Assembly (NCBI GenBank): GCA_902800395.1
Contig: CADCEC010000010.1
Location: forward strand, 92,122-156,121
Reading direction: 5' to 3'
DNA: 64,000 nucleotides
From: an uncultured Bacteroidota bacterium
GTDB taxonomy: Bacteria; Bacteroidota; Bacteroidia; Bacteroidales; P3
Shown here: piece after piece, positions 3,324 to 40,694 of the stretch
Layout of the letters: every line of letters begins with the position of its first letter
Numbering within the stretch: position 1 is the first letter of the stretch
Notes under the pieces: generated by a model
The model's input: only the letters and a program-made list of their open reading frames with translations
What the model was told of the DNA's origin: nothing
Database searches by the model: none
Position numbers and translations under genes: made by a program

Positions 3324-3325
3324 GT

Positions 3326-20511: not shown

Positions 20512-20533
20512 CGAAAAAATCCTCATTCAACGC

Positions 20534-20867: not shown

Positions 20868-21087
20868 TTTTTTGTAATGTTTAATGGTTAACGGTTAGTG
20901 GTTAACGATTTAACATGGCTTGCGTCAGCCCCGTTAACCTTTAATCTTTAAATTTTAACCCTTATGATAACGTTATCTACTTCTATTTATTGTTTACCAA
21001 AGTAAAATTTAACAAAAATAGCATAAAAAGAATAGTAAAAGAAGATAAGAAGAGGATACTAAGAATTAATAGGTTACAAACAGAAAG

Positions 21088-21122
21088 AAAGTGCCCCGAA
21101 AGTGGTTTTTCGAGGCACTTTT
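21088..21122 (-). terminator. Second terminator of the 19.5-kb surface operon (possibly bidirectional)
   Basis: AAAGTGCC at 21088-21095 pairs with GGCACTTT at 21115-21122, and CGAAA/TTTCG extends the stem past one mismatch around a GTGGT loop. On the minus strand the stem is followed by CTTTCTG. It could work in both directions because T-rich sequence flanks both sides. Confidence 0.65.
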
Positions 21123-21128
21123 CAGCAG

Positions 21129-21158
21129 ACAAAAAAGGAACGCCGGCATCCTGCCGGC
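21129..21158 (-). terminator. First terminator of the 19.5-kb surface operon
   Basis: GCCGGC at 21142-21147 and 21153-21158 forms a strong 6-bp stem with an ATCCT loop. On the minus strand it is followed by GTTCCTTTTTTG, a good U-tract. It lies 21 nt after the stop codon of the last gene of the unit. Confidence 0.8.
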
Positions 21159-21179
21159 AGAAAGGGGTTATTAAAGTCT

Positions 21180-24100
21180 TTAGTCTTTTACGAGGCGGAC
21201 AAACATACTGCTGGATTTTTCGGCAATATGGATGGAGGGATAGTAGATGATGATGATGTTGGGTAAAGTGTATAGATAATATCCAGGCTCCTCTGTATAA
21301 ATATTAACTTTCCAATATAAGTAATTGGCGGAACTTGTCCATGATTGGAAGATGGTGTTCTGCCTATAGCAAGTGCTGCTCCAATAGGAGCCAGGATAGG
21401 AGTTCTCGGCTGTGGTGCCGCTGGTGGGGAGAAACACTGCTCCGGCAGCCTCCATCAGTGCCCATTGGGTGGTGTCATACACATTTTGCGCGTAGTTGCT
21501 TGTTGCTTGGGTGTGGGTGTTCGCAAAAGTGATGCCTGTTGGCGATGTCCAGTTGTCGGGGAGCAACACCATGCCGCGCACGCCATTGACGGTGGCCCAG
21601 CCTTGGAGATTGTGGGCGTTGGGGCGTCCGTTGATAATATACTCCCATTCGTCGCTAGTCAGCGTGCGCCACTGCCCTGGGGTATTGCCGCCGTTGGCGA
21701 TGGAGTTGTGGACACCCCAGTCGTAGTGTGCATTGGTTCCCACGAGATCCCAGTCGGCCATACGGGAAGAAGGCCCACAGCCGGAACTGCTATAATATTG
21801 CAAATAGGGAAGATAATAAGTATTTTCGAAGTCGGTGGGGTCATGGTAGCCGCTGGTGGCCCACGCGAACTGGTCTATCCAGCCGTTGTATGTGGCGGAA
21901 CGATAATTGTTGCCGATGCCGCGGTAGTCGTACTGATGGTTACCGAAACGCCACACGTCGGCGGAGGCTTTGTACTGCAAGTTGCCCTTGGAGAAGCGCA
22001 CCTGATGGGTGTCGCTTACAGAGAAGTAACCGGGCAGCACGCCGGGCTCTTCGATAATGAGCGAGAGGGTAATCATACTGTCGCAGCCAGCGGCATTGGT
22101 GATAACCTCCAGATAGTCGCCTGTCTCGTTATAGGTCTGTCCATGCCATGAGAAGGGACCGTTGCTGACGATAGTGGTGTCGAAATAGGTACACTGGCAA
22201 TCGAACGAACCCGGCGTATTGTTTTGTACCAGACGCACAAAACTTTCCACACTGCGGTTGTAGGAGGCCAACATATTCTGTTCGTTGTTCGTGGCGAAGC
22301 AGTAGGCGCCGCCATTGCCCTTCGACGAGGAGGTCCAGTAGCGTGCTACATCTGATGACCCCAAGGGCAGGAAGACCGCTCCTTGGACTTCCATCCTTTT
22401 CCAGTTGGCAATGGAATAGGTGTTCATCGTGGTTCGCGAGAAGGAAAGTCCCGGCAGGTCTGTCCAGTCATCTGGCAGCAGCACATAGCCCCTCACTGTC
22501 GTTGTCGATCCACTGGGTGTCGGGACATAGTAGATGGTGGCGCGACCCTGTAGGTTGGCGGCATCGGGGCGACGGTAGAGGAGATAGTCCCATTCTTCGC
22601 GAGACATAGTCCGCCAGAGATTTTGATCGGAACCGCCGTTGGAGATAACGTTGTATTGCCCCCAGTCGTAGTAGCGGCTGGTGCCGGTGAGGTTGGTGTC
22701 GGCCATAAAGGTGGAGGGGCCATATCCCTGCAAGTTATATTGCGACAAGGGTTCGGGGAGGTAGGTCTTGTTGTGGTCCCAGGGCGAGAACTGAATGTTT
22801 AGGGTGTCAACGGCATTGTGGTAACCACTGGTGGCCCAGCCGAAGAGGTCGCTCCAAGCAGGATAGTAAGAGGCCACGCAGGAGCTGTTGAGGACATCGT
22901 ATTGATGTTGGGCGAAGCGCCAGTATCTGTCGGATGATAGAAACTGGAGGTTTCCGCTAGAAAAGCGTACCTGAAGTCCTTCGCTGACAGAGAAGAGTCC
23001 TGGAAGGGCACCGATGCCCACATTCGAAGCCACCGAGAGGTGAAGCACGAATATGGAATCACAGCCGTTGACGGCGGTGAGGGTGTCGCCATAGTCACCC
23101 TGCACCGTATAGGTCGTTCCCCGCCAAGTGATGCCCGAAACGGTGCGAGCCACCGTGTCCTGCCTGTAAGAGGGAATGACGACAATCTGCACGCACACCA
23201 CGCTGTCGCAGCCCCCTTGGGCGATGAGACCCAGATGATGCTGGTAGGTGTCCGAAGAGCTGTAATTCCGCCCATACCACATCACACGTCCACAGACGTT
23301 CAGCACTGCTGTGTCGGCAGCGTTACGGTAGGAGTAGCAAGTGTCGGCAGCGATAATATTCAGGTGGAGGGTGTCGGTGCTGGGACATCCCACCTCGTTG
23401 TAATAATGATACTGATAGTGTCCCGATTGACGGTAGATGGTTCCATGCCAGAGGAGCGAATCGACGGCTGTGATGTTATGCGACAAGCGGGAACCGTGCC
23501 GGACGGTGAGGTGAAGTGTGTCGGTACTATAGAAGCCTTCGGCGTTGGAATAATGGTAGAGGTAGGTGCCCGAAGTGGTGTAACGGGTTCCGTTCCACAT
23601 GAAGGTGTCGCAGGTAGAGGTGGTGATAGCGGTATGCGACCCTTGGTCGAGGGAGTCGAGGTGGAGCAGCGAGAGGAGCGAGTCGAGGTAGTGGTATGTG
23701 AGAGCGTCCTGCGGGTCGGTGGGGTCGGCGAGATTTTTGAGTTGGTGGTTTCCTGCACTGTTGCCGAGTGCAGTTGTGGAGTCGAGGGTCTGAATTTCAG
23801 CACGGCGCGGAATCTTCACATAGCTGCCACCCGTGAGGAAAATGGTGTCGTGGGAGATGGAGAGCACCTGCTGTTCGACGAGCATGAAGCCGGCGTCGTT
23901 GGTGAACTGGCTGAGGGCTGTGGGAGTGTTAGTGAGGTGGTTGTAGTTGCCGTCGAAATCAATGGGGATGGTCACGCTGCTACCGCCGGTGAGGGAAATG
24001 GTGCGTCCCGCGATGGAGAGCGCCTGTACCTCGCCCGTGAGGTAGCCGGCATCGTTGGTGAAATGGCTGACATTAGTGGGACGGTTGCGGAGACTGTAAT

Positions 24101-24617
24101 AGTCGCCATCGAAGCGGTCGAGCACCACGAAGCTACCGCCCGTGAGGAAGATGGTGTCGTTGGAGATGGAGAGCATCTGTTTCTCGCGGAAGGAGACGCC
24201 GCGGAGGCTGTCGGTGACATGGACATTGAGGGCGTAAGGAACACTGATAAGCTGGTAGGAGGCCTGTAGGGGCGTACCTCCGTGTACGTCCTCTATCTCA
24301 ACCTTCATGGAGTAAGGACCGTTGCCCCAATCGATATCGCCAGCATTGACGATGGTGGAAAAGGAGCCAAAGCTATTTGTGGTGACGGTCTGTTGCTCCC
24401 GTAGGGGCGTACCCCCATGTACGCCCTCTATTTCGACCTTCAGTTGCAGGTTACAATAGGGCATTAGGTTGCCTTGTGCATCACGCACCACGGCCTGCAG
24501 CGAGAACTGCTGGGGTGAGGTGTTCTCCACTTGGCTGTTTGCCATCGAGGGGAGCAGCAGTGCCAGTAAGAGAGATGCCTGGGCAACTATTGATCTGATG
24601 ATGCTTTTTGGGTTCAT
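21180..24617 (-). CDS. Secreted fibre-like protein with two lectin-fold-like C-terminal domains (paralogue 1)
   Basis: A 1145-residue secreted protein, tandem paralogue of the next gene upstream. After a signal peptide comes a domain beginning FSLQAVVRDAQGN (about 38-135). Then three repeats of the type LSISNDTIFLTGGSF ... NRPTNVSHFTNDAGYLTGEVQ follow, the style seen in phage tail fibres and Bacteroidota surface fibres. Next come several W.G..Y..SG.Y modules ending GCDSI..LHL, with paired cysteines. Finally there are two ~250-residue domains (starting GLFSVSEGLQVRFSSGNLQF and GYFSVSDTHQVRFSKGNLQY). These contain GYGPS, YDWGQYN, WRTMSREEWDYLL and YWTSSS and end FVRLV, resembling Fibrobacter major-paralogous/formylglycine-enzyme-like folds. 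No T9SS sorting domain is visible. Export route and ligand are unknown. Confidence 0.82.
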   Translation of the reverse strand: MNPKSIIRSIVAQASLLLALLLPSMANSQVENTSPQQFSLQAVVRDAQGNLMPYCNLQLKVEIEGVHGGTPLREQQTVTTNSFGSFSTIVNAGDIDWGNGPYSMKVEIEDVHGGTPLQASYQLISVPYALNVHVTDSLRGVSFREKQMLSISNDTIFLTGGSFVVLDRFDGDYYSLRNRPTNVSHFTNDAGYLTGEVQALSIAGRTISLTGGSSVTIPIDFDGNYNHLTNTPTALSQFTNDAGFMLVEQQVLSISHDTIFLTGGSYVKIPRRAEIQTLDSTTALGNSAGNHQLKNLADPTDPQDALTYHYLDSLLSLLHLDSLDQGSHTAITTSTCDTFMWNGTRYTTSGTYLYHYSNAEGFYSTDTLHLTVRHGSRLSHNITAVDSLLWHGTIYRQSGHYQYHYYNEVGCPSTDTLHLNIIAADTCYSYRNAADTAVLNVCGRVMWYGRNYSSSDTYQHHLGLIAQGGCDSVVCVQIVVIPSYRQDTVARTVSGITWRGTTYTVQGDYGDTLTAVNGCDSIFVLHLSVASNVGIGALPGLFSVSEGLQVRFSSGNLQFLSSDRYWRFAQHQYDVLNSSCVASYYPAWSDLFGWATSGYHNAVDTLNIQFSPWDHNKTYLPEPLSQYNLQGYGPSTFMADTNLTGTSRYYDWGQYNVISNGGSDQNLWRTMSREEWDYLLYRRPDAANLQGRATIYYVPTPSGSTTTVRGYVLLPDDWTDLPGLSFSRTTMNTYSIANWKRMEVQGAVFLPLGSSDVARYWTSSSKGNGGAYCFATNNEQNMLASYNRSVESFVRLVQNNTPGSFDCQCTYFDTTIVSNGPFSWHGQTYNETGDYLEVITNAAGCDSMITLSLIIEEPGVLPGYFSVSDTHQVRFSKGNLQYKASADVWRFGNHQYDYRGIGNNYRSATYNGWIDQFAWATSGYHDPTDFENTYYLPYLQYYSSSGCGPSSRMADWDLVGTNAHYDWGVHNSIANGGNTPGQWRTLTSDEWEYIINGRPNAHNLQGWATVNGVRGMVLLPDNWTSPTGITFANTHTQATSNYAQNVYDTTQWALMEAAGAVFLPTSGTTAENSYPGSYWSSTCYRQNTIFQSWTSSANYLYWKVNIYTEEPGYYLYTLPNIIIIYYPSIHIAEKSSSMFVRLVKD
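24266..24293. repeat. GTAGGGGCG palindromic element in frame (copy a)
   Basis: GTAGGGGCGTAC at 24266-24277 is followed after six bases by GTACGTCC at 24284-24291, the partly matching opposite arm (7 of 8, one G-U). On the coding strand it encodes EDVHGGTPL. It is nearly identical to copy b 135 bp away in the same gene. Confidence 0.75.
24401..24428. repeat. GTAGGGGCG palindromic element in frame (copy b)
   Basis: GGGCGTAC at 24405-24412 and GTACGCCC at 24419-24426 form a perfect 8-bp inverted repeat with a 6-nt loop. It starts with the same GTAGGGG. On the coding strand it encodes EGVHGGTPL. Confidence 0.8.
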
Positions 24618-24622
24618 GGCGA

Positions 24623-27600
24623 TTAATCTTTGACGAGGCGGACGAAAAATTTGTTAGATTTGGAAGTATTGGAGTAACTTGTGTAAACATTATATCCAGG
24701 ATCTGCGGACTGAATGTTTATATACCAATAAAAATAATATGCAGACGAAGACCATGCGTGGAACACTCCAGATCGGTAAGTGGTGCTACTCCAGTAACTA
24801 GCGGAATAGGTAGATTCGGCAGTGGTGCCGGTAGTGGGCAAAAAGACGGCACCCGCGGCTTCCATGGTAGCCCACTGGGTGACACCGTAGATGTTCTGTA
24901 AATAGTTATTTCCACCTGAATTAAATGTAATTCCAGCAGGTAACGTCCAACTATCCGGAAGTAACACCATGCCGCGCACGCCATTCACCGTCGCCCAACC
25001 ACGAAGATTATTGGCATTTGTACGTCCATAGAGAAGATAATACCATTCACCATCAGAGAGTGTCCTCCACTGACCTGGGGTGTTGCCACCGTTGGCAATG
25101 GGATTGTGCACACCCCAGTCGTATTGAGCGCTGGTGTTTACAAGATCCCAGTCGGGCATGATACTGGAAGGCCCACAACCACTACCAGCACTCCATGGTT
25201 TGTATGATATGTTTCCAAAATCAGTGCTGTCGTGGTAACCGCTTGTGGCCCAGGCGAACTGGTCAATCCAGCCGGTATAAGTAGCGGACCGTTTGCTGTT
25301 GTCGGCACCGCGGTAGTCGTACTGGTGGTGGCCGAAGCGCCAGACATTGTTTGAGGCTTTGTACTGCAAGTTGCCCTTGGAAAAGCGCACCTGATGTGTG
25401 GCACTCACGGAGAAGTAGCCTGGCAGCACGCCGGGGTCCTCGATAATCAGCGAGAGGGAAATGATGGAATCGCAACCGGCTGCATTGGTAATGGCCTCCA
25501 TATAGTCGCCTGTTTCGGTATAGGTATGACTGTGCCATGTGAAGGGACCGGAAGAGATGATGGTGGTGTCGTAGTAGGTGCAGTTGCAGGTCATTGCATT
25601 GGGGTCGTAGGTTTGAGCCAGACGGACATAGTTCTGGTTGCTGCGGTTGTAGGGAGCGCGGAGGACGGTGGTAGTGGTACCGTTGATGGCCAGACAGTAG
25701 GCCGAGCCTGTGCCGCCGCTAGTAGAAGTCCAGTAGTAGCCCGCGGGCAGGAAGAGGGCACCAACCGCTTCCAGCTGCTTCCACTGGGTGAGAGTGTACG
25801 AATTTGTATTGTAGGAGGTAGCGTTGGCGGTAAAGGGAATGCCTGTGGGCAAGTTGGCATTGCCGTCATCGGCAAGGATAATGTAGCCTTGTACTGTGGC
25901 AGTACCGCCAGTAGCCGTCGGAACTCCCGTGATACGACCAATGGATCGAAGATAGGCGGCATTATTGCGCTGGTTGAGGAGGTAGTCCCACTCGTCGTTG
26001 GAGAGCAAGCGCCAGAGGCCCTCTTCAAAACCACCGTTGGCGATGTTGTTGAACTGACCCCAGTCGTAGTTGGCACTGGTGCCCGTGAGGTTGGTGTCGG
26101 CCATATTCAGCGAGGGTCCATAACCATACTGATTGTAGGTGTAGGCAGCGGTACCTGGAGTGGCTGAATGAGTGGAATGGTCGAAGGGTTGGAAATTGGT
26201 GTTCAATGGGTCTGCGGGGTCGTGGTAACCGCTGGTACCCCAGCCGAAGACATCGCTCCAGGTGGGATAATAGGCAGCAGCACAGGGAGTGTAGAGTACC
26301 TCGTATTGGTTCTCGGCAAAGCGCCAGAACATGTCGGACGAGAGGTATTGCAAGTTGCCGCTAGCAAAACGTACATACTCGCCGTTACCGATGGAAAAGA
26401 GCCCAGGAATGGAACCCACGCCGGAATTCGAACCGATGACGAGATGCAGCGTATAGATGGAATCGCAGCCATTGACGGCGGTAAGCGTGTCGTTGTAGTC
26501 GCCGGTGACGGTATAGCTATTGCCACGCCAGGTGACACCGGTGGCGGTACGGGCGGAGGTGTCGCCATGGAACATCGGCAGTATCACTACCTGTACACGC
26601 ACCACGCTGTCGCAGCCTCCGACGGCGATGTTGCCGAGGCTGTGCTCATACATGCCGGAAGCTGAAATAATGGCCCCATACCAGGAAGCACGTCCGCAGG
26701 CGTTGAGTTGTGCCGTATCATTCTCGAAACGGATGGAGGTACAGTCGGCACTGCCGGCATGGAGGGTGAGGTGCATGGTGTCGACGCTGGGACATCCGTA
26801 GAGGTTGAGGTAGTTGTAGACATAGGTTCCTGAAGCGGTGTAGAGGGTGTCGTGCCATGTGTAGGTACCCGTGGCGGTGATGTCCTCCACGTTGTGGGTG
26901 CCCACACGAACATAGAGTTTCAGTGTGTCGACGCTATAGAAACCTCCTTCGTTGGAGTAGGCATAGGTGTAGGTTCCCGTCAGAGAGTAGTGGGCTCCGT
27001 GCCAGAGAAAGGAGTCGCAAACATCGACCTGTGTGACGTTATGGGTGCTGTAGTTGGCATCAGGATTCTCGGCCAGTAGTGCCCAGATGGAGTCGACATA
27101 GTGCTTAGTGACGGCATCCTGTGGGTCGGTGGGGTCGAGGAGGTTCTTCAGTTGCTCGCCACCGGCGGAATTTCCCAATGCTACTACGTCGGCAAGGGTC
27201 TGCACCTCGGTGTAGTCGGGGATGACGACGTAACTGCCGCCGGTGAGGTAGATGGTGTCGTTGCCAAAAGAGAGCACCTGCACCTCCTGGGTGATGAAGC
27301 CCATATCGTTGGTGAACTGGCTGAGGTTGGTGGGACGGTTGGTGAGGCTGTTGTAGTTGCCGTCGAAGCCCGCAGGGAGCTTCACGAAGCTGCCGCCGGT
27401 GAGGAAGATGGTGTCGTGGGAGATGGAGAGCACCTGCACCTCGCCGGTGATGTAGCCGGCATCGTTGTTGAACTGGCTGATGTTGGTGGGGCGGTTGGTG
27501 AGGTGGTTGTAGTCGCCGTCGAAGTCGGGGGGCAGCACCACGAAGCTTCCGCCGGTGAGGTAGATGGTGTCGCCGTGCATCCAGAGCACCTGCTTCTCCT

Positions 27601-28090
27601 CGAAAGGGACACCCCGTACGCTGTCGGCGATGCCGGCATAAAGGGCATAGGGCACGCTGACGAGCTGCTGGTTGGTGACGATATTGAAGTTGGCTCCCGC
27701 GGTGAGCTGCACCTCAGACTGGAGGTAGTAGGGACCGTTGCTCCAGTCGATGATACCGAGATTGGCATTGGAACCCACCTCGAGGGAGAAGAGACCGAAG
27801 CTGTTGGTGGTGACGGTGGCGTTCTCGGTGTAGACGACGGTGCCGTTGGCGCTCCCCTGTCGGATGGTGATGCGCACGGGGAGGGTGCCGTTCTCGACGA
27901 GACGGCCGTTGGCGTCGCGCACTACGGCCTGATAGTTGAAACGCTGTGGGGCCTGCGCCTGGACGGAAGTGAAGAATGAAAAGAATAAAAGGAGTGAAAG
28001 GAAGTGAAATGGAGTGAAATGGAGTGAGAGGACAAATGATTGTTTTGAAACGTTTGCCCAGATGCTATTGATATTGTTCTTGTTCATCAT
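24623..28090 (-). CDS. Secreted fibre-like protein with two lectin-fold-like C-terminal domains (paralogue 2)
   Basis: 1155 residues, same plan as the gene just downstream (5-nt gap): signal peptide, domain starting FNYQAVVRDANGRLVENGTL, three LTGGSFV ... FTNDMGFITQEVQ-type fibre repeats, four W.G..Y / GCDSI modules, and two ~250-residue C-terminal domains. The latter contain WRLLSNDEWDYLLNQR, WRTLSDGEWYYLLYGR and YWSSTTYRSG and end NKFFVRLVKD. The two paralogues are most alike in the framework of the last domain and differ in the Tyr/Ser/Asn-rich stretch just before FVRLVKD. The signal peptide region is partly made of 10-bp tandem repeats (27991-28030) and reads SLHFTPFHFLSLLLFFSFF. No T9SS sorting domain is seen; the neighbouring 196-aa protein has one. 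Confidence 0.82.
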   Translation of the reverse strand: MMNKNNINSIWANVSKQSFVLSLHFTPFHFLSLLLFFSFFTSVQAQAPQRFNYQAVVRDANGRLVENGTLPVRITIRQGSANGTVVYTENATVTTNSFGLFSLEVGSNANLGIIDWSNGPYYLQSEVQLTAGANFNIVTNQQLVSVPYALYAGIADSVRGVPFEEKQVLWMHGDTIYLTGGSFVVLPPDFDGDYNHLTNRPTNISQFNNDAGYITGEVQVLSISHDTIFLTGGSFVKLPAGFDGNYNSLTNRPTNLSQFTNDMGFITQEVQVLSFGNDTIYLTGGSYVVIPDYTEVQTLADVVALGNSAGGEQLKNLLDPTDPQDAVTKHYVDSIWALLAENPDANYSTHNVTQVDVCDSFLWHGAHYSLTGTYTYAYSNEGGFYSVDTLKLYVRVGTHNVEDITATGTYTWHDTLYTASGTYVYNYLNLYGCPSVDTMHLTLHAGSADCTSIRFENDTAQLNACGRASWYGAIISASGMYEHSLGNIAVGGCDSVVRVQVVILPMFHGDTSARTATGVTWRGNSYTVTGDYNDTLTAVNGCDSIYTLHLVIGSNSGVGSIPGLFSIGNGEYVRFASGNLQYLSSDMFWRFAENQYEVLYTPCAAAYYPTWSDVFGWGTSGYHDPADPLNTNFQPFDHSTHSATPGTAAYTYNQYGYGPSLNMADTNLTGTSANYDWGQFNNIANGGFEEGLWRLLSNDEWDYLLNQRNNAAYLRSIGRITGVPTATGGTATVQGYIILADDGNANLPTGIPFTANATSYNTNSYTLTQWKQLEAVGALFLPAGYYWTSTSGGTGSAYCLAINGTTTTVLRAPYNRSNQNYVRLAQTYDPNAMTCNCTYYDTTIISSGPFTWHSHTYTETGDYMEAITNAAGCDSIISLSLIIEDPGVLPGYFSVSATHQVRFSKGNLQYKASNNVWRFGHHQYDYRGADNSKRSATYTGWIDQFAWATSGYHDSTDFGNISYKPWSAGSGCGPSSIMPDWDLVNTSAQYDWGVHNPIANGGNTPGQWRTLSDGEWYYLLYGRTNANNLRGWATVNGVRGMVLLPDSWTLPAGITFNSGGNNYLQNIYGVTQWATMEAAGAVFLPTTGTTAESTYSASYWSSTTYRSGVFHAWSSSAYYFYWYINIQSADPGYNVYTSYSNTSKSNKFFVRLVKD
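27991..28030 (-). repeat. Four 10-bp tandem repeats in a signal-peptide region
   Basis: In coding orientation the units are CTCTCACTCC, ATTTCACTCC, ATTTCACTTC and CTTTCACTCC, that is, the tilS repeat unit with 0-2 changes. They encode part of the hydrophobic core of the signal peptide. Confidence 0.9.
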
Positions 28091-28093
28091 AGC

Positions 28094-28684: not shown

Positions 28685-28723
28685 AAACCTATTAACTATT
28701 ATCTGTTATCTATTATCAATAAA

Positions 28724-30786: not shown

Positions 30787-30800
30787 AACCTATAACCTTT

Positions 30801-33800
30801 TTACCGAATTACTACGACGCGTCTGGCGGGGGCTTTGCCGACTTTGACGAAGTAGACGCCAGAAGCGGAGAGGCGGAATTCGACGGTGGAGAGGACATCC
30901 TGTTTACGGTCTATCACGCGTCCGTTGACATCGTAGACATAGACATCGTTTCCTTCGGCTCCCTGGACGATGATGCGACCATCGACGGAGAATATCTCGA
31001 CGTTGTCGGGAATGACATCGGAGACACCCACGCCGCTGCCGTTGGTGGCAATGTTGGAGAGGACGATGTTGGAGGACTTGGAGGGGTTGCAGGGGTTGGC
31101 GAGGATGATACCCACCTGATAGTAGACGTCACCCGTGGGAGCGTCCTCGTCGGTGTAGGTCGTGTTGCCGCCAGAGGGCATGATGTCTATCTGCTCGATG
31201 TTGTAGGCATTGGTGCCACGGTAGATGACGTAGGTGGTGTAGTCGGCACCCTCGTACTCCGTCCACACAAGGTTCCAGCTGGTTCCGATACCCTGACTGA
31301 TGGTCAGATGCATGGTTTTGTGAACGGTGCCGAAGTCGGATTCGTAGCCGTAGATATCGGTAGCGGTCATCTTGTAGCGGTAGCTGCGGGTAGTGGGACG
31401 CGATGTGGTGTCAATCCATATCGAGACCGAGTCGTAGGGAATGGAGGCTATCATAGCGTAGACACCGGCGGTGTTGGCCTCGCGGTAGATGTTGTAGCGC
31501 TGCACCTCGAGGTCTTTCGGCCAGCCGAGTACATTGCGTCCGTTCTGGACGGAGACCATGCAAAGGTTCGGTGTGACGTCGTCGGTGAAGACAACGGCGA
31601 AGAGGGTGTCGGAGGTAATGGTGACGGTACGCACGGGTGTGCGGTCTCCATTGTCCCATTCGGCGAAGTGGTAGCCCTCGGAAGCGACAGGCTGGAGGGT
31701 TAACGTGGCACCGTAGGGGAAGGAGAGGGCGTTGAGGCCGCTGCCGTCGTCAACAGTGATGCTACCGCAGGCGTCGTTGTCGAACACTCCGTCGGCAGAG
31801 CCAGCGCGTGTGAGGGTGACAACACTGTGCGAGTCGATGGCGAAGATGGCGGTGAGGGAGAGGCTGGAGTCGAAGTCGAAGATAATCTCACGAGAGCTGG
31901 CAGTGACGCCGTCGCTCCACTGGACGAAGTGGTGGTGGGCTGCGGTGCAGGTGGCCGAGATAAAGGCAGTGTCGAGGTAGAGGTAGTTGCCGGCGCCGGA
32001 GACCGTACCGAGGGCGGCATCGTTGACGGAGAGGTAGAGCGAGACGGTGTTAGGAGCGAACTGGGCGGTGAAGGCGGTGTCGCACGTGAGGGTGAAGGTG
32101 CGCGGGTTGTCGGTGACGCCGTCGTTCCAGGAGGTGAAGTGGTAGCCGTAGTTGGGTGTGGCGGAGATGGTGCGCGTGCTGAGGTACTGCGAGGCGCTGT
32201 CGCCAGAGACGGTGCCGTGGAGGACGTCGTCGACGGCGAGGGTGACATTATAGATATTGTAGTCAAACTGGGCGGTGAACGTGATGTTGTCGGTCACCTG
32301 CACGGTGCGCGGGTTGTTGGTGTTGCCGTCGTTCCACTGGGTGAAGTGGTAGCCGTAGTTCGGCGTGGCGGTGAAGGTGACATAGTCGAGATATTCCGCA
32401 GAGGTCTCTGAAGCCAAGGCGTTACCCATGGTGAGGTTGGCAGAGAGAGCGGTGACGTCGTAGATGTTCTTGTCGAAGGAGGCTGTGAAGGCAGTGTCCT
32501 GCGTCAGGGTGACGGTGCGCGGATTGACCGTGACGCCGTCGTTCCACTGGCTGAAGTGGTAGCCGTAGTTGGAGTTGGCGGTGAGGGTGTGGAGCGAGAG
32601 GTAGTTGTCATCGGCGGCGTTGTTGTCGGAGGCGGAGCCGTAGGCGGCATTGTTGACGTTCACGGTCAGCGTGTAGTGGTTATAGCCGAAGATGGCGTAG
32701 ACGGTCTTGCTGCGGTCCGCCACCACGGTGTGGGGATTCTCGGTGGCACCGTCGCTCCACTTGATGAAGTGGTAGCCGTAGCCCGCAACAGCCGTCAGCG
32801 TGACGGAGTCGAGGTAGTCGACGGTGTCGTTGCCCGTCACCTCACAGGTGCCTGAGAAGATGGGGCTAGGCAGGGTCTGGCCCATGCTGAGGGTGATATT
32901 GTCCACAGCGGCAGCAGGCGTGTGCATCACCGAGTTATCGTTGCGCCAGTAGAAGACGAGGTAATAGTTGCCTTCGGTTGCCACGTCGATTGTGCCGTTT
33001 TGGAGGGTCCAGTCGCTGTTTAGGTTGAGTTTGTGTCCGCCGTCGAGGGCGATGGCGCCGTCGGGGACGGAGGTGGTGCCCCAGGAGGTTTGGAAGTAGG
33101 TTCCGTCGGGGACGAGGGCCACGCGGAGGTAGTCGTAGGAGCTCTCGCCGTTGCAGCGCCAGTCATAACTGTAGCTGTACTGTCCGGCAGGCAGGTAGAG
33201 CGAAGTGTAGGCATAGACGTCGGAAGGCTGGGTTCCGTCATAGCTGTTGGTGGCGCCATTGTCGTTGCTGATGAAGAGGGCGTTGTTCGAGCCTTCCAGG
33301 TTGGCGATATACCAGCGGTTGACGTAGTTGTTGTTGGAGAGGGTCCAGTTGCTGCCGCCGTCCTCGAAGTTGAAGCTAAAGAAGGAGCCGTCCATGTTGC
33401 CGATGGAGTCTGCCTGACTGTCCTCAAGCACCATCGCCATACCGTTCACATCGAACTGGCTGATGGCGAAGGAAGCTGTGAAAGCGGTGTCCTGCGTGAG
33501 GGTGAGGGTGCGGGGGTTGTCGGTATTGCCGTCGTTCCAGGAGACGAAGTGGTAGCCATGGTCGGGGGTGGCGGCGACGGTTACTTCGGTGAGATAGGGG
33601 TAGTAAGCGGTGTCGGCTGCGACCTGGCCATAGGGTGTGGTCTCGTCTACCGAAAGGCTGACAGCGTAGTTGTTGGGCTCGAAGTAGGCGGCAATATTAT
33701 AGTGCCATATAGCCTGCAGGGTGAGGACGCTGTCATCCCACCGATTGGTGTCAGTCCAGTGGTCCCAATAGAGGAAGTGATAGCCGTAGTTGGCGTGGGC

Positions 33801-36800
33801 GATGAGGGAGAAGGTGTCGAGCGCGGTGACGGTATCGCAGCCCTCTACACTTCCGTAGGCATCAGAGGGTGATGCAAAACCGCAGACATAGTAGGTGTCG
33901 ATGACGAAGACGGGCGTGAGCACGGTATCCTGTGTGAGGGTAATGGTACGCGGGTTGTCGGTGTTGCCGTCGGTCCAGCGCACGAAGTGGTAGTAACTGT
34001 CGTTCCATGCTGTAACCTGTGTGGAGGTGGTACAGGTGGGCTCGATGGTGATGCCGGCATTGCCGTGGGGTGCACCGCCGAAGCGGAGGGCATAGGTATT
34101 GCTCTCCACGAGGTTGGCGTCCTGCCAGACGGGTGTGGTCTGGTAGGTGTTAAGCAGACCGCAGGGGACATACACGACGGCGGTGCTGTCGAGGCGGTCG
34201 AGGACGTCGCCCGTCACTGAGGGCGGGTAGCCCTGCATCCTCAAATGGCGAATATTGCCGGTGATGAGGTAGAGCGGCAGCGACTGCACACCCTCGTCGA
34301 CATAGACGGTGTAGAAGTTGGGCATGGCGTTAGCCATCACGTTGCAGTTGACGGCGTTGTAGTAGAGGGTTTGGCCACTCTGGATGGCATATTCTTCAAT
34401 GCGGGCGACTGTGGAGGGAATGGTAAAGTTTACGTTCCAAGAGCTGTACTCAAAGGCATGGTGTCCGATGGAGAGGAGTCCTTCGGGGAATTCGACGGTG
34501 CGGAGATCCGACAAGCCGTAGAAGGCGTAGGGCTTGATGGCTGTGACCCCCTCGGGAACCACGAGGTTTCTGACGGCCTCGCCGCCAATATAGAGGTTGC
34601 GGGAATAGGAGATTGGGTTGCAGTCCCAACCATTGTTGAAGCCGATGCGGCACCAGTCGGCGACAGTTCCAGTGAAGTTGGTGCGCTGCAGGCCGTTGCA
34701 TTCGTTGAAGGCATTGTAATCAATGCTGTCGAGCGTGGACGGCAGGGTGACGGAAGCGAGGCTGGAGAGGCGCATAAAGGCGTACTTTTTGATTTCGGTG
34801 ATTCCTTCAGGAACCACGAGGTTGACCACCTCAGAGCCGTTCATAAAGAGATGGCGTGCGTAGCTGATGGGATTGGAGTACCAGCATTCGAAGTCGATGT
34901 TGCACCAATCGGCTATGGTGCCACCCCAGTTGACGCGGGTGAGGCTGCTGCAGTTGTCGAAGGCGCCGCAGCCCACACGGGTAAGGCCTTTGGGCAGGGT
35001 AATCCAGGTCATTCCGCTCTGGCTGGAGAAGACGGATCCGTCGATCTGGGTGACGGGCAGCATCTGTCCTTCGTACATCACGCTATCGGGGATAGTTACG
35101 ATGCCGTTGAGGGTGCCATTGACACCGGAGAGGGTGAGTCCGACACCGTTATAATAGTAATGGAATATGGAGCCGTCGGGCAGGGTGTCGTAAAAATCTT
35201 CGACAAAGACGGGGGTTATCACGGTGTCCTGAGTGAGGAAAATATCGCGAGGGTTCTCGTTGTTGCCATCGGCCCAGTGGGAGAAATGCCAGCCGTTGTT
35301 GCTCCAAGCGCTGATAGTAGCCGGGGTGGTGCAGGTGCCCTCCTGGTTGATGCCGGCGCTGCCATGCTCGGAGGTGCTGAAAGTGATAGTGTAAACCGAG
35401 GTCTCCATCAGATTCGTGCTGCCCCATTCGGAATCAGCTTGGTAAAGGCTCAGTAGGCCGCACTTCACAAGCACTTCGGCAGTGGGACGCAGGCGGACGA
35501 GGGCATTCTCTTCCACGGTGGGAGGGGGACACATCATTTTGAGTCGCCAGAGGTTGTTTGTGAGTATGTTAGTCGGCAGGAACTGCACGCTGTCGCCCAC
35601 TATCAGGATGTTTGTATTCGGGCAGGCGTTACTGGCTACTTCCGTGCAGCTCACGGCATTGAACCTGAGCGTCGGGCTCATGCTCATTGCCCACTCGCCG
35701 ATTGCGGTGACGGTTGAGGGTATTGTGAAGGAGTTGTTGCTGGGATACACCTCATGCAGGGCGTAGCGCTCGATTCTCTGAAGTCCTTCGGGGAGTGTCA
35801 CCGTGCCCACATGCTGCAGGTTGTTAAAGACATACTGTTTGAGTACGGTTATCCCCTCAGGAATCACAATGTCGTGAATCCTGGTGTTGCCAAGATAGAG
35901 ATTGTGAGCAGCAGATATTGGGTTGGACCACCAGTCTTCGAAGTTGATATTGCACCATTGATCCAATGAGCCTCTGAAGGTGACGCGGGTGAGCTGGTAG
36001 GAACTGTTGAATATGCTCGGCCCCATTCTTGTCAATCCTTTGGGCAGGGTGATAGCTGTCATGCCGCTCTGTTCGTAGAAGACCCAGCCGTCGATGGCGG
36101 TGACGGGCTGCATGGTGCCTTCGTACATGATGCTGTCAGGAATTTCCACGCTTCCGGTGAGAGTACCGTTGACGCCACCGAGGGTGAGGCCAGCACCATT
36201 ATAATAATAGTAGAAAATGGAGCCGTCGGGTAGGGTGTCGTAGAAGTCTTCGACAAAGACGGGAGTCAGCATAGTATCCTGGGTGAGGACAATCTCACGG
36301 GGATTATCGGTGTTGCCGTCGGCCCAGCGGGCGAAATGCCATCCATTCGTGTTCGACCAGGCAGACACTATGGCTGGGGTGGTGCATGAGGCCCCCTGAC
36401 TTAAGCTGGCATAGCCATGCTCGGAGGCGTCGAAGGTGAGGGTGTATGTGTTGGCCTCCTGCAGGTTGTATTCGTTCCACTCGTCATTGGCTTGGTAGAG
36501 ACTCAGCAGTCCGCAGGCCACCTGGATGGTGGCGTCGCTGCGCAGGCGGTCGAGAGCGAAGTTCTGCACCGTGGGCGGCGTGCATTGCATCTTGAGAGTG
36601 GTGATATTGTTGTTGATAAGGCCATAGGGCAGCACCTGCACGCCTTCGCCCACCACAATGGTGTTGTTGTAGGGAATGGCATTGTTGGCCATATTGGTGC
36701 AGTTGACGGCGTTGAAGATTACTGTGCGGTCGGTGTAGATGGCCTCGCTGCCGATGGCAGTGACGCCTGCGGGAATAGTCACCACAGCGTTCCAGCAGTA

Positions 36801-39800
36801 CCAGAAGGCCCAGGAGTCGATGGCTTCGAGCGATGCGGGCAGGTCGAAATGACTTACACTGCTACAGTTTTGGAAGGCACTCATGTCGATATAGGTGAGG
36901 TTGGACGAGAAGTTCACCGCCGTGAGGTTTTCACAGTTTTGAAAGGCGAACATGCCGACGGTCAGGATGTCGTCGGACATGGTGACGGAGTTGAGGCTGT
37001 TGCAGCGATAGAAGGAGTAGGGCTTGATTTCGGTGACGCCTGCGGGGATAACCAGGTCGGTCACGCGGCTGTTTCCGAGGAAGAAATTGCGCGAGTAGTA
37101 GATGGGGTTCGACGAGGGCTCAGAGAAGTCGATGTTGCACCATTGAGACACAGTACCCGTGAAGCGGGTGCGGCCGAGGGAGTTGCAGTCCTCGAAGGCA
37201 CCGAAGCCGATGGACTGGAGGGTGGAGGGCAGCGTGATGTTGGCTAGCTGGTTGCCACCGCGGAAGGCATACTGGCCGATGGAGGTGACGCCCTCGGGGA
37301 TGATGGGGTTGATGACCTCCTCACCGCCGATGTAGAGATGGTGGGCATTGTTGAGGGGGTTGGCCTCGCGGTTCTCGAACCAAATGTGGCACCACTGTGC
37401 CAGCGTGCCGGTGTAGTAGACGGCCGTGAGACTATTATTGTAGGCCAATGCATACTCGCCTAGGGAATCTATGGTGGCAGGGAGGGTAATGGCGGTCATA
37501 TTGTTTTGCGAGTGGATTGCCCAGCTGTCGATGCCGACGACGGGGTAGCTGACGCCTTCGAAGGTGACGGTGTCGGGGATGACGAGGTGGCCTTCGATGT
37601 CGCCGTTGTGGCCGGTGACGACCATACCACTACCATTGTAGCGGTAGTAGAGCTGTCCTAGTTCATACGATACAACCTCAAAATTGGCGCAGATATTGTC
37701 GCTGTAGGAGGGTTCGTAGGTGCGGACGGCTTCGCCGTTGCCGTCGCTCCAGCCGGTAAAGTGGTAACCAGTGTTGGCGTAGGCGGCGATGGTGACCGTA
37801 CCGCCGGCTTCGACGGTGTCGCCACCAGTGACGTAGCCGCGGTCGTTCCAGTCGTTGCACACCGTGGGCACGACATAGTAGGTGTCGATGACGACTACAG
37901 GGGTGAGGAGGGTGTCCTGAGTGAGGTCGATGGTACGGGGATTGTCGGTGACGCCATCGCTCCAGCGGAGGAAATGATGGTGGTTGTAGCCCCATGCGTA
38001 GACTGTGGCGGGTGTGGTGCAGGTGGCTTCTTGGCGCACCTCGGCGTCTGCGTACTCAGACAGGGCGAAGCGGATGGCATAGGTGTTGCTCTCCGACAGG
38101 CGGCTGCCCAGGGTGCTCCAGGTGGTGTTCTGCTGATAAAGCGACAGCTTGCCGCACTTCACCTTCACCCGGGCATTTTCCGACAGGCGGTCGAAAGCGT
38201 TACTCTCCACTTGGGGCGGATCGCAATTCAGCCTGAGAGAGTTGATATTGACGGTGAAGAGGTTTATCGGTAGCGATTGCACGTTTTCTCCCACCACCAC
38301 TGTGAAGAAATTGGGTAGCGCATTGGTGGCCATGTTAGTGCAGTTGACTGCATTGTAGTAGACTGTTCCGCCTGCAGTGATGGCATTCTCGCCGATGGAG
38401 GTGACGGTGGAGGGAATAGTGAAGTTGTAGTTGCAGCTGAAGGCATACTTTCCGATACGTTGCAGTCCTTCCGGCAGCACAACCGAATTGATGCCGTGCT
38501 GGCTGTAGAAGGCGTAGGGCTTGATAACGGTCACCCCCTCGGGAATCACTAAGTTGGTTATTTTGCTGCCTCCGATGTAGAGGTTGCCCGAACGAGCAGT
38601 GGGGTTGCTGCCCCAGCCGTCGTAGAAGCCTATGCCGCACCATTGGGCGACAGTGCCGTTGTAGTAGGTGCGTGTCAGGTTGTTGCAACCCTCAAAGGCA
38701 CTGGGACACACGGTGTCGAGAGTGGAGGGCAGTGTTACGGTGGTGAGGTTGCTCAATCCGTAAAATGCGTATTTCCCGATGGAGGTGACGCCTTCGGGAA
38801 TGACGAGATTAGTCACCGCGCTACCTCCAATATATAAGTTATGGGCGTAATGACATGGATTCGAAGCCCAGTAGTCAAAGTCGATGGCACACCACTGTTC
38901 GATGGTGCCGTTGAAGTACACCCTTGTCAAACCTGTGCACTCGTAGAAATCATTTACGTAGTTCAGATTTTTCGGCAGCGTTACTGAGGTCATGTTGCGC
39001 TGTTCATGGAAACCGCTGGTCCAAATCTTGGTCACGGGCAGCAGTGAGCCGTCGTATATTACGCTGTCGGGAATCACTAGGGCTCCGTTGATGGTACCGT
39101 TGATGCCGCCGAGGGTGAGGCCTTCGCCGTTGAAGTAGTAGTATGCCATTACTCCGTCGGCTATGGAGTCGTAGAAATCCTCGGCGAAGATGGGAGTGAT
39201 CACGGTGTCCTGAGTGAGCGTGATGGTGCGGGGGTTGTCGGTGACGCCGTCGCTCCAGCGGACGAAATGGTATCCGTTGTCGGGCCAAGCGTTGATGATG
39301 GCCGGCAGTGTGCAGGTGGGGGTCTGGTTATAACCCGCGCCGCCGTGCTCATAGCAGCCAAAGGTGAGGTTGTAAGGAGTGGTCTCCTGATAGGTGTTGG
39401 GCAGTTCGCTCCAAGTGTCGGCGGTGCTATACAGCTGTGCCATGCCGCAGGGCACCTGGATGACGGTCGAGGCAGGTAGGTTGTCGAGGGCGAAGTTGGC
39501 TACAGTAGGCGGAGGGCATCGCATTTTGAGCGTACTGACATAGCCCTCATAGTAGGGGAGGAGATAGCGAGGGATGTACTGCACATCGGGACCCACCACA
39601 AGGGTGTAGATATAGGGCAGTGCTGAGAGGTCCCATGTGTTGTTATTGGGGTTGGTCACGGTGCAGTTGATGGCGTTGTAATGGACGGGACCGCCGCCGT
39701 AGATGGCGTGGTCGGCGATGGAAGTCACCGTTGAAGGAATGGTGTATTCAGTATTCCAGTCGCAATCCCAGAAGGCGTAGTAGCCGATGCTCTGCAAGCC

Positions 39801-40577
39801 CTCAGGCAGCACGACGGAAGTCTGGTTGCTCAGGCGGTAGAAGGCGTAGGGTTTGATGGCCGTGACGCCCTGGGGAATGACGAGATTGGTCACGCGGGTG
39901 TTGCCCACATAGAGCTTGCGGGCATAGTAGACGGGGTTGGCTGACCCGTTGGTGAAGGCTATGTTGCACCAGTCAACTAGCGAGCTGCAATAGATGCGTG
40001 CCAGACCGGAACAATTTTGGAAAGCCTCCGACCCCACGCTGTCGAGTGAGGAGGGAAATGTCACCGTTTCTAGACCCGTGCAGCCGTAGAAGGCATATTG
40101 CTTGATGGTGGTGACACCCTCCGGAATTACTAAATTAACCACCTCCTGATTGTCGATATACAGGTGCTGGGCAAAATGGAGGGGGTTGCTGTACCACTCG
40201 AAGTCGATGGCCACCCATTGGTCAATCGTACCACCGTAATTCGCCCGTGTTAAGCCTGAGCAGTCGCCGAAGGCATAATAGCCGATGGTGGTTATCGAGG
40301 CGGGAATGGTGACAGATGTCATGCCGGAGCAACTACTGAACGCCCAGCTATTGATGCGGGTGACGGAGTAGGAGACATTCTCATACATCACGCTGCTGGG
40401 GATGGTCAGTGCGCCGCTGAGGGTGCCGGTGTAGCCGTTGAGCACAGCCTCGCCGTTGTCGAGGTAGTAAGTCAGTGTTTGCCCTGTAGGGGCAACGGAT
40501 TCAAACGATTGTGCCGTTGCTTTCGGCAGCAAGGTCATCAGCATTAGCACAAAAACAAGAGATAATACTTTTTTCAT
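30801..40577 (-). CDS. Giant (3258 aa) BspA-like leucine-rich-repeat T9SS cargo protein
   Basis: Signal peptide MKKVLSLVFVLMLMTLLPKA, then five super-blocks starting near residues 22, 476, 974, 1454 and 1802. Each block opens with YYYNG-type strands and IPDSV, continues with BspA-type LRR_5 repeats (LVIPEGVTAIKPYAFYGLS, SLDSVGSEAF) and most end with a HFVRWSDGVTDNPRTITLTQ module of the InlB-B/Flg_new kind. About eight more of these W.DG modules fill 2230-3000, interrupted near 2390-2570 by a MAM-like domain (FNFEDGGSNWTLSNNNYVN). Two fibronectin-like segments and a T9SS type A sorting domain (VEIFSVDGRIIVQG ... SASGVYFVKVGKAPAR) close the protein. BspA-like proteins bind host proteins in oral Bacteroidales; binding here is not known. 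It heads the 19.5-kb unit. Confidence 0.92.
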   Translation of the reverse strand: MKKVLSLVFVLMLMTLLPKATAQSFESVAPTGQTLTYYLDNGEAVLNGYTGTLSGALTIPSSVMYENVSYSVTRINSWAFSSCSGMTSVTIPASITTIGYYAFGDCSGLTRANYGGTIDQWVAIDFEWYSNPLHFAQHLYIDNQEVVNLVIPEGVTTIKQYAFYGCTGLETVTFPSSLDSVGSEAFQNCSGLARIYCSSLVDWCNIAFTNGSANPVYYARKLYVGNTRVTNLVIPQGVTAIKPYAFYRLSNQTSVVLPEGLQSIGYYAFWDCDWNTEYTIPSTVTSIADHAIYGGGPVHYNAINCTVTNPNNNTWDLSALPYIYTLVVGPDVQYIPRYLLPYYEGYVSTLKMRCPPPTVANFALDNLPASTVIQVPCGMAQLYSTADTWSELPNTYQETTPYNLTFGCYEHGGAGYNQTPTCTLPAIINAWPDNGYHFVRWSDGVTDNPRTITLTQDTVITPIFAEDFYDSIADGVMAYYYFNGEGLTLGGINGTINGALVIPDSVIYDGSLLPVTKIWTSGFHEQRNMTSVTLPKNLNYVNDFYECTGLTRVYFNGTIEQWCAIDFDYWASNPCHYAHNLYIGGSAVTNLVIPEGVTSIGKYAFYGLSNLTTVTLPSTLDTVCPSAFEGCNNLTRTYYNGTVAQWCGIGFYDGWGSNPTARSGNLYIGGSKITNLVIPEGVTVIKPYAFYSQHGINSVVLPEGLQRIGKYAFSCNYNFTIPSTVTSIGENAITAGGTVYYNAVNCTNMATNALPNFFTVVVGENVQSLPINLFTVNINSLRLNCDPPQVESNAFDRLSENARVKVKCGKLSLYQQNTTWSTLGSRLSESNTYAIRFALSEYADAEVRQEATCTTPATVYAWGYNHHHFLRWSDGVTDNPRTIDLTQDTLLTPVVVIDTYYVVPTVCNDWNDRGYVTGGDTVEAGGTVTIAAYANTGYHFTGWSDGNGEAVRTYEPSYSDNICANFEVVSYELGQLYYRYNGSGMVVTGHNGDIEGHLVIPDTVTFEGVSYPVVGIDSWAIHSQNNMTAITLPATIDSLGEYALAYNNSLTAVYYTGTLAQWCHIWFENREANPLNNAHHLYIGGEEVINPIIPEGVTSIGQYAFRGGNQLANITLPSTLQSIGFGAFEDCNSLGRTRFTGTVSQWCNIDFSEPSSNPIYYSRNFFLGNSRVTDLVIPAGVTEIKPYSFYRCNSLNSVTMSDDILTVGMFAFQNCENLTAVNFSSNLTYIDMSAFQNCSSVSHFDLPASLEAIDSWAFWYCWNAVVTIPAGVTAIGSEAIYTDRTVIFNAVNCTNMANNAIPYNNTIVVGEGVQVLPYGLINNNITTLKMQCTPPTVQNFALDRLRSDATIQVACGLLSLYQANDEWNEYNLQEANTYTLTFDASEHGYASLSQGASCTTPAIVSAWSNTNGWHFARWADGNTDNPREIVLTQDTMLTPVFVEDFYDTLPDGSIFYYYYNGAGLTLGGVNGTLTGSVEIPDSIMYEGTMQPVTAIDGWVFYEQSGMTAITLPKGLTRMGPSIFNSSYQLTRVTFRGSLDQWCNINFEDWWSNPISAAHNLYLGNTRIHDIVIPEGITVLKQYVFNNLQHVGTVTLPEGLQRIERYALHEVYPSNNSFTIPSTVTAIGEWAMSMSPTLRFNAVSCTEVASNACPNTNILIVGDSVQFLPTNILTNNLWRLKMMCPPPTVEENALVRLRPTAEVLVKCGLLSLYQADSEWGSTNLMETSVYTITFSTSEHGSAGINQEGTCTTPATISAWSNNGWHFSHWADGNNENPRDIFLTQDTVITPVFVEDFYDTLPDGSIFHYYYNGVGLTLSGVNGTLNGIVTIPDSVMYEGQMLPVTQIDGSVFSSQSGMTWITLPKGLTRVGCGAFDNCSSLTRVNWGGTIADWCNIDFECWYSNPISYARHLFMNGSEVVNLVVPEGITEIKKYAFMRLSSLASVTLPSTLDSIDYNAFNECNGLQRTNFTGTVADWCRIGFNNGWDCNPISYSRNLYIGGEAVRNLVVPEGVTAIKPYAFYGLSDLRTVEFPEGLLSIGHHAFEYSSWNVNFTIPSTVARIEEYAIQSGQTLYYNAVNCNVMANAMPNFYTVYVDEGVQSLPLYLITGNIRHLRMQGYPPSVTGDVLDRLDSTAVVYVPCGLLNTYQTTPVWQDANLVESNTYALRFGGAPHGNAGITIEPTCTTSTQVTAWNDSYYHFVRWTDGNTDNPRTITLTQDTVLTPVFVIDTYYVCGFASPSDAYGSVEGCDTVTALDTFSLIAHANYGYHFLYWDHWTDTNRWDDSVLTLQAIWHYNIAAYFEPNNYAVSLSVDETTPYGQVAADTAYYPYLTEVTVAATPDHGYHFVSWNDGNTDNPRTLTLTQDTAFTASFAISQFDVNGMAMVLEDSQADSIGNMDGSFFSFNFEDGGSNWTLSNNNYVNRWYIANLEGSNNALFISNDNGATNSYDGTQPSDVYAYTSLYLPAGQYSYSYDWRCNGESSYDYLRVALVPDGTYFQTSWGTTSVPDGAIALDGGHKLNLNSDWTLQNGTIDVATEGNYYLVFYWRNDNSVMHTPAAAVDNITLSMGQTLPSPIFSGTCEVTGNDTVDYLDSVTLTAVAGYGYHFIKWSDGATENPHTVVADRSKTVYAIFGYNHYTLTVNVNNAAYGSASDNNAADDNYLSLHTLTANSNYGYHFSQWNDGVTVNPRTVTLTQDTAFTASFDKNIYDVTALSANLTMGNALASETSAEYLDYVTFTATPNYGYHFTQWNDGNTNNPRTVQVTDNITFTAQFDYNIYNVTLAVDDVLHGTVSGDSASQYLSTRTISATPNYGYHFTSWNDGVTDNPRTFTLTCDTAFTAQFAPNTVSLYLSVNDAALGTVSGAGNYLYLDTAFISATCTAAHHHFVQWSDGVTASSREIIFDFDSSLSLTAIFAIDSHSVVTLTRAGSADGVFDNDACGSITVDDGSGLNALSFPYGATLTLQPVASEGYHFAEWDNGDRTPVRTVTITSDTLFAVVFTDDVTPNLCMVSVQNGRNVLGWPKDLEVQRYNIYREANTAGVYAMIASIPYDSVSIWIDTTSRPTTRSYRYKMTATDIYGYESDFGTVHKTMHLTISQGIGTSWNLVWTEYEGADYTTYVIYRGTNAYNIEQIDIMPSGGNTTYTDEDAPTGDVYYQVGIILANPCNPSKSSNIVLSNIATNGSGVGVSDVIPDNVEIFSVDGRIIVQGAEGNDVYVYDVNGRVIDRKQDVLSTVEFRLSASGVYFVKVGKAPARRVVVIR
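40486..40520. repeat. GTAGGGGCA palindromic element in frame (copy c)
   Basis: GTAGGGGCAACGG at 40486-40498 has a matching arm CCGTTGC at 40514-40520, giving a 7-bp inverted repeat (GCAACGG/CCGTTGC) with a 15-nt loop. It lies just after the signal peptide of the LRR giant and encodes part of SFESVAPTGQT. It shares GTAGGGGC with copies a, b and d. Confidence 0.6.
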
Positions 40578-40663
40578 GGTTTTTATTATTTTGTTATTGT
40601 TATAATTCTGTAATAATTTGTATACTAATTCAGTATATAATTTTGCGATTTATTTCATAGGTG

Positions 40664-40694
40664 CAAACTTAAGAATAAAAAATCATTTTTGCAA
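40664..40694 (-). promoter_or_regulatory. Promoter of the 19.5-kb surface operon
   Basis: On the minus strand TTG (40692-40694) is followed after 20 nt by TAAGTTTG (40664-40671), a TAnnTTTG -7 box. The leader to the ATG at 40577 would be about 80 nt and very A/T-rich. It is divergent from the miaB promoter, and the two core promoters overlap in the same 70-bp region. Confidence 0.6.

Follow-up and report, generated by a model that had tools for sequence, protein, structure and literature searches.

How could a member of the Bacteroidota display large surface fibres whose own sequences hold no sorting domain? This question is raised by a gene cluster on the minus strand of a 64,000-nt stretch of DNA (hereafter the window) from an uncultured Bacteroidota bacterium (assembly GCA_902800395.1, contig CADCEC010000010.1, positions 92,122 to 156,121), to which the coordinates of all features below refer. 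The cluster (21180-40577) comprises six open reading frames (ORFs), G1 to G6, with successive gaps of 14, -4, 39, 3, and 5 nt, and ORF calling reproduced exactly the six genes and gaps given by the original prediction, which had been made from the sequence alone. G5 and G6 encode the putative fibres, and directly upstream of them lies G4, a small gene whose product carries a sorting domain of the type IX secretion system (T9SS). We propose that G5 and G6 are adhesive fibres resembling the MAT fibres of Bdellovibrio, that G4 supplies their T9SS export or anchoring signal in trans, and that G3 and G2 serve as an anchor specific to this lineage, a reading to which we assign a probability of roughly 0.55. 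The best-matching named loci belong to the uncultured Bacteroidales RUG156 and RUG153, placing the host close to rumen Bacteroidales.

Pairing of G4 with the Fibre Genes

G4 (28094-28684) encodes a protein of 196 amino acids, of which the C-terminal part (28103-28321, residues 122-194) matches TIGR04183, the T9SS type A sorting domain, with 51 bits against a cut-off of 23, in agreement with the small T9SS cargo predicted originally. This domain is modelled with a predicted local confidence (pLDDT) of about 85-97. The N-terminal beta domain (28340-28534, residues 51-115), delimited by alignment and a phylum search, is the part proposed to bind the fibre. All 31 G4 homologues scanned, the aligned subset of 33, match TIGR04183 at E up to 0.01, a result that is partly built in, because the profile by which G4 homologues were picked includes the sorting domain.

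No such domain was found in the fibres themselves. A profile of the G4-type sorting domain, which tests only that kind, matched 0/43 and 0/45 fibres in the two comparison sets described below, and in NCBIfam, by which the other kinds were tested, none of 23 fibres of this lineage or 10 fibres of the phylum matched a sorting-domain family at E up to 0.01. The family scans likewise gave no sorting-domain match for G5 or G6.

The pairing of G4 with the fibre was counted in two sets of loci. The phylum set consists of 40 regions from 38 genomes with the stronger matches to the fibre base (E about 1e-27 or better); G174, G186, G248, G286, and G311, with matches of like strength, and the second matches of some genomes were left out. 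The named set consists of the best 80 of 576 confirmed candidates and overlaps the family set described below (L162/G087, L163/G095, L164/G134, and L165/G142); it holds 45 fibres, of which L178 and L185, with less than 700 nt upstream, were left out of the pairing count. An ORF was labelled as G4-type when it was shorter than 320 amino acids and matched the full-length G4 profile at E up to 0.001, and 32/33 and 30/33 of the labelled ORFs match over both domains. So defined, a G4-type ORF lies within 300 nt upstream of 33/43 fibres in the phylum set and of 33/43 in the named set, and three further fibres per set are linked to G4 via a tandem fibre, compared with 1/176 and 1/491 control ORFs of at least 200 amino acids, respectively. 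Relatives that share the tip and lack the base domain have a G4-type neighbour in 0/38 cases, so that the pairing follows the base domain rather than the tip. The spacing between G4 and the fibre is mostly 2-30 nt in the phylum set and wider in some Bacteroidales, and the isolate Salibacter halophilus (L174) also carries the pair, at 7 nt. When searched alone, the G4 N-terminal domain was found in 7/296 phylum genomes, its own included, and in the other six it matches about 330-360 nt upstream of the fibre-base match on the same strand.

The distribution of the fibres also points to the T9SS. The fibre-base profile (E up to 0.001, weak matches included) was found in 69/296 phylum genomes and in 45/140 genera, while SprA, the T9SS translocon, is present in 228 of the 296 genomes and absent from 68. 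All 69 genomes with a fibre base are among the 228 with SprA and none is among the 68 without it, as judged by comparing the tables by eye (Fisher 1.4e-9, a value that ignores kinship; 16 of the 20 SprA-less genomes listed come from one family).

Fibre Genes G5 and G6

G5 (24623-28090) encodes fibre 1 of 1155 amino acids and G6 (21180-24617) fibre 2 of 1145 amino acids; the two are, as had been predicted, paralogues, and they share 59% identity. Both carry a signal peptide (by eye), and the fibre has no lipobox or barrel of its own. Directly after the signal peptide follows a beta-rich base domain (27656-27955 in G5, about residues 46-145), the same position as that of the base of about 130 amino acids in MAT proteins. 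The Bdellovibrio MAT base model, NF053851, matches this domain in G5 (E 1.8e-8, 34.3 bits) and in G6 (21.1 bits), in both below its cut-off of 60 bits. It is also matched by 22 of 23 fibres of this lineage (E up to 0.01, best 2.2e-9, all below the cut-off) and by 10/10 phylum fibres (6.7e-5 to 3.8e-11, at most 43 bits), mostly over the first half of the model. By these scores, the fibres are relatives of NCBI's Bdellovibrio MAT subfamily and not members of it.

The base of G5 is followed by shaft repeats (27221-27598) of the type LTNRPTNxSQFxNDxGY / DTIYLTGGSYV, arranged as a tandem unit of 156 nt, and, after beta spacers, by two tip domains, of which the first (25613-26443, residues 550-826) is related to FISUMP and the second (24626-25441, residues 884-1155) ends the protein. 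The corresponding tips of G6 are located at 22224-23027 and 21183-22052. In the G5 model, pLDDT is mostly 74-92 in the base from residue 51 on and mostly 75-96 in the two tips; the full-length model has a pTM of 0.42, and no fold claim rests on it. The fold search with G5 gave as its best PDB entry the neck of GhpA, the Aureispira grappling hook (E 2e-7, with a root mean square deviation of 67.5 A over a multi-domain chain), a match that we take to reflect no more than beta-sandwich repeats in common. PDB sequence searches with the fibre base and the tips found nothing (best 0.36 in one, no match in the other). As a separate observation, the spacer-like repeats of G5 (model residues about 345-555) match repeats in ORFs of about 5800 amino acids elsewhere in the genome, and given also the poorly superposed GhpA match the spacer is possibly a common module of giant Bacteroidota surface proteins.

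FISUMP belongs with the C-type-lectin-like folds. The tip profile aligns with a FISUMP profile, built from the PF09603 hits of related genomes, at an hhalign probability of 95.3% (E 2e-8 in a single comparison, 140 columns, 14% identity). Direct matches are weak: TIGR02145 was found in 4/23 fibres (best 0.0034) and Lcl_C in 2/23 (best 0.0093), and a search of this genome with PF09603 itself was negative at 1e-10. The lectin-fold-like tips of the original prediction are thus supported indirectly by the FISUMP profile match, and the tips resemble the FISUMP (PF09603/TIGR02145) and Lcl_C surface proteins over part of the profile. The tip profile and the fibre-base profile are unrelated to each other. 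As in MAT proteins, one base domain is combined with exchangeable C-termini, which are of FISUMP type, of S74 type (S74 domains in 3/10 phylum fibres scanned), or unassigned. Loci L227 and L230 possess a MAT-type base and, by eye, FISUMP-like ends (SVRCLRD), with no adjacent G4, and would be informative on how a fibre does without its partner.

Lineage-Specific Genes G2 and G3

G2 (30130-30786) is the conserved first gene of a cassette specific to this lineage and encodes, as the original prediction had stated, a lipoprotein; the protein has 218 amino acids and the lipobox LSAC (by eye). Neither Pfam and NCBIfam nor a PDB sequence search gave anything credible for it. In locus L182, the G2 lipoprotein gene occurs twice near one cassette (3112-3762 and 5353-6012).

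G3 (28724-30133) encodes a protein of 469 amino acids that combines an outer-membrane beta-barrel (29519-30022, residues 38-205; OMP_b-brl_2, 26.7 bits, just under the cut-off of 27) with an OmpA domain of the peptidoglycan-binding type (28820-29104, residues 344-438; 5e-23), in which D381 and R396 are invariant across 19 aligned rows. The OmpA-type protein predicted earlier was therefore recovered, with a barrel part in addition.

A search for G3 covered 149 family genomes, including the one studied here, and the regions of 20 strong-match genomes were compared, G028, with a match strength like that of G005 and G038, being left out. The order G2-G3-G4-fibre is kept in 18/20 of these related genomes; G005 and G038 possess a relative of G3 only. 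The conserved neighbourhood looked for in relatives was thus found, and it supports the original idea of a surface structure in the form of a conserved surface-fibre gene unit. Two fibres per unit are not general: among the 17 relatives in which the contig continues, two fibres (1102-1160 amino acids) occur in G095, G142, and G134, and the remaining 14/17 have one fibre of 569-758 amino acids, while the contig of G087 ends inside the first fibre gene. Among the ORFs of the 40 phylum regions, none matched the G2 profile and one matched the G3 profile, over its OmpA part only. G2 and the G3 barrel accordingly appear, on the basis of these profile searches, specific to this lineage, and the core with the wider distribution is the pair of G4 and fibre.

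Proposed Mechanism and Points Against It

According to the proposed mechanism, G5 and G6 would enter the periplasm via their signal peptides, where the fibre may assemble as a trimer. Its architecture would run from the MAT-related base through tail-fibre-type shaft repeats and beta spacers to two FISUMP/C-type-lectin-like tips, which may bind a glycan or a protein. The N-terminal domain of G4 would hold the fibre base, and the T9SS with its attachment machinery would read the sorting domain of G4 and so carry the fibre out, or hold it at the surface, in trans. For this lineage, a tie of the complex to the outer membrane and the cell wall may be provided by G3, with its barrel and OmpA domain, and the lipoprotein G2.

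Several observations weigh against this proposal. For the N-terminal domain of G4, presumed to contact the fibre, the model has a low pLDDT of about 50-70, and the domain is weakly conserved, being detected in 7/296 genomes versus 69 with the fibre base; the wider set of G4 proteins rests on the full-length profile, which includes the sorting domain. In each set, 10/43 fibres have no directly adjacent G4, or 7/43 after the tandem cases, although among them L144 carries a G4-like ORF of 339 amino acids directly upstream, excluded by the limit of 320, and L158 one downstream. Furthermore, the phylum loci represent strong matches only, and weaker ones, including very large proteins, stand outside the set. 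The shaft of the G5 monomer has a pLDDT mostly below 45, i.e., it is disordered as a single chain. The OmpA domain is missing from 5/21 named G3 homologues (L167, L168, L169, L172, and L173), suggesting that the wall tie is optional and not essential to the cassette. Finally, Bdellovibrio is not known to have a T9SS, and its display of related MAT fibres would therefore imply another export route for a relative.

Alternative Explanations

The original prediction had all six proteins form one assembled structure with G1 as its scaffold. G1 (30801-40577) encodes a protein of 3258 amino acids with BspA-type leucine-rich repeats (LRRs; 12 LRR_5 stretches) and an InlB-B-repeat, and it lies on the same strand only 14 nt from G2, which speaks for a common structure. 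Its length and LRRs are as predicted, but its sorting domain falls below both cut-offs (TIGR04183, 20.2 of 23; Por_Secre_tail, 16 of 27), and G1 is a probable, not a secure, T9SS type A cargo. In the named set, a G1-like LRR protein is the nearest upstream same-strand ORF in 1/22 G2 homologues (21 loci), the single case being L188, in which an LRR relative of 1491 amino acids lies 173 nt upstream of G2; the test considered only the nearest same-strand ORF of at least 150 amino acids within 6 kb, some of these ORFs are probably spurious, and L181 has none. In the closest relative, G087, whose G3 is 77% identical, the upstream side of G2 has an ORF of 133 amino acids at about 40 nt and the nearest ORF of at least 150 amino acids (G087/L162) at 1204 nt; an LRR-containing ORF (E 3.5e-45) ends 1.8 kb from G2, which together with L188 lends the six-protein structure some support. 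No LRR ORF abutting G2 was found in G087 or in G095, the closest relatives, and the LRR-like ORF of G123 is on the opposite strand and does not abut G2. Since the LRR neighbour is not conserved, the conserved unit spans 21180-30786 and G1 merely abuts it here; we judge from these neighbourhoods that G1 is probably a local neighbour outside the unit, its membership is rejected on the count of 1/22, and a six-protein structure with an LRR scaffold is improbable.

For the five remaining genes, the same G4-fibre pairing (33/43 in each set) could be explained if G4 were a surface socket only, which the T9SS exports and which is then attached to lipopolysaccharide; the fibre would cross the outer membrane by a different route and dock on G4 afterwards. 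Such a route is suggested by the surface display of MAT fibres in Bdellovibrio (Caulton et al. 2024, PMC10769870), which is not known to have a T9SS. However, the neighbour ORFs listed include no other exporter beside the fibre genes (by eye), and in our sample the fibres occur only in SprA-bearing genomes, which makes the socket an unlikely, if still reasonable, explanation. An origin from what is left of a phage tail-fibre region, or from a phage-derived particle, would account for the tail-fibre type of the shaft repeats, and of the S74 domains that some relatives carry, and for the weak similarity in fold to tail proteins of phages. Yet a signal peptide or a lipobox was seen by eye in all six proteins, one of them (G3) is an outer-membrane barrel, and ordinary bacterial genes flank the cluster. 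The PHROGs scan of five proteins yielded a single match, of 0.0021. The phage remnant is rejected as very improbable. C-type-lectin-like domains are the usual targets of diversity-generating retroelements (DGRs), and the relation of the tips to such domains might suggest that they are diversified in this way. The genome's single PF00078 (RVT_1) reverse transcriptase matches retron families best, though below the cut-offs; apart from a 14-nt match, no copy of a fibre gene was present in the surrounding 3.6 kb, and no template-like repeat was found within 1.5 kb. Diversification by a DGR is thus contradicted for this genome, to the extent that its completeness of 94.6% permits, and hardly deserves credence. 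The reverse transcriptase (L241, G000:C1:142710-143267) lies in an open frame of 1003 amino acids and, in a scan of the RT part only, matches the Ec67-type and TIR-type retron families best.

Relation to Known Systems

Described already are MAT fibres, FISUMP domains, and cargo proteins of the T9SS; a pair of a small T9SS protein and a fibre was not found described in the open-licence literature searched. The original view that this is not a described system therefore holds for the pair and not for the fibre base, which is related to Bdellovibrio MAT fibres. Bdellovibrio is a predatory bacterium, and its MAT-type fibres serve prey recognition. The MAT superfamily of Bdellovibrio bacteriovorus (Caulton et al. 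2024, PMC10769870) resembles the fibres described here in its signal peptide, beta-rich base, shaft, and exchangeable tips. One of its tips is likewise of the C-type-lectin kind (Bd2740), and some members end in S74, a domain reported for 13/21 Bdellovibrio MATs. What differs here is the small T9SS-type gene directly upstream and, in this lineage, the barrel-OmpA protein and the lipoprotein.

A second parallel is the T9SS type B C-terminal domain with its PorP/SprF-like shuttle and PorE, where a surface protein is likewise held by a barrel and a partner associated with the outer membrane (PMC9143113, PMC12618676). As well, the OmpA part of G3 gave a match to NF052230 (PorE, OmpA-type domain). 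In that system, however, the adhesin has its own type B sorting domain and is commonly followed by the barrel gene; here, a type A domain resides on a separate small protein, and G3, with barrel and OmpA in one protein, lies upstream of G4. The PorP/SprF family was not among the 25 of 40 families listed for G3, nor was it seen for three OmpA-less barrel homologues.

In two-partner secretion, TpsA is a large adhesin and TpsB a separately encoded pore for its export. The G4-fibre pair would likewise join an adhesin to neighbour-dependent export, although this is an analogy only, since TpsB is a pore and G4 a T9SS-type cargo.

Transcription Signals and Neighbouring Genes

The original prediction placed one promoter in front of the six genes and two terminators behind them. 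No exact Bacteroidetes-type promoter motif was found on the minus strand before G1, where only the -7 half is present (40664-40671). Sigma-70-like sites precede G1 (40790-40763 and 40614-40585) and also occur within the unit, one directly before G4 (28709-28680), so that the single promoter is not borne out. Two terminator-like hairpins, identified by consensus only, indeed lie just 3' of G6 (21141-21159 and 21088-21121), but such sites are no commoner in the region (15) than in shuffled sequences (mean 14.4). One transcript for all six genes is plausible.

Behind the hairpins, a gene on the same strand (19225-20526) encodes a T9SS plug protein (NF052315, 1.6e-91). The flanks also include miaB (by eye) and tilS, and a plus-strand gene (6265-18063) overlaps the beginning of tilS by a single base (18063) and encodes a protein of 3932 amino acids whose T9SS type A sorting domain scores above the cut-off.

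Short tandem repeats are present at 30771-30798, 28689-28728, 28635-28670, 43061-43091, 46898-46931, 49540-49574, 54213-54236, 60829-60862, and 20875-20905, several of them intergenic or at the start of a gene. The commonest unit is 7 nt (11 of the 35 listed rows, which can overlap). The start codon of G2 sits within four such units, the gap between G3 and G4 is itself a tandem repeat of this kind, and a 9-nt unit at the start of G4 encodes KEVKEVKEV. As 7 is not a multiple of three, a change in copy number could switch frame or spacing. Exact arrays of at least 2.8 copies occur twice in the window with period 7 and once each with periods 8, 9, and 10; none of period 6 or more arose in 20 first-order Markov sequences. 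This count is a side observation and carries no weight in the fibre proposal.

Biological Implications

T9SS substrates are recognised via their own C-terminal domain (PMC12618676), and the surface element that holds the MAT base in Bdellovibrio is unidentified according to the Discussion of Caulton et al. (PMC10769870). Our broadest claim, which goes beyond the proposal for this locus, is that the T9SS can export a large and probably trimeric fibre lacking a sorting domain, with a small protein encoded next to it providing a type A sorting domain in trans, that this pair is common in Bacteroidota, and that G4 is the counterpart of the element holding the MAT base; we advance it tentatively and lean against it for the present. 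If it is true, a sorting signal carried by a second, small protein would extend the range of T9SS cargo, and surveys based on sorting domains would miss such fibres. Moreover, a conserved partner gene in Bacteroidota makes the question of what holds the MAT base testable.

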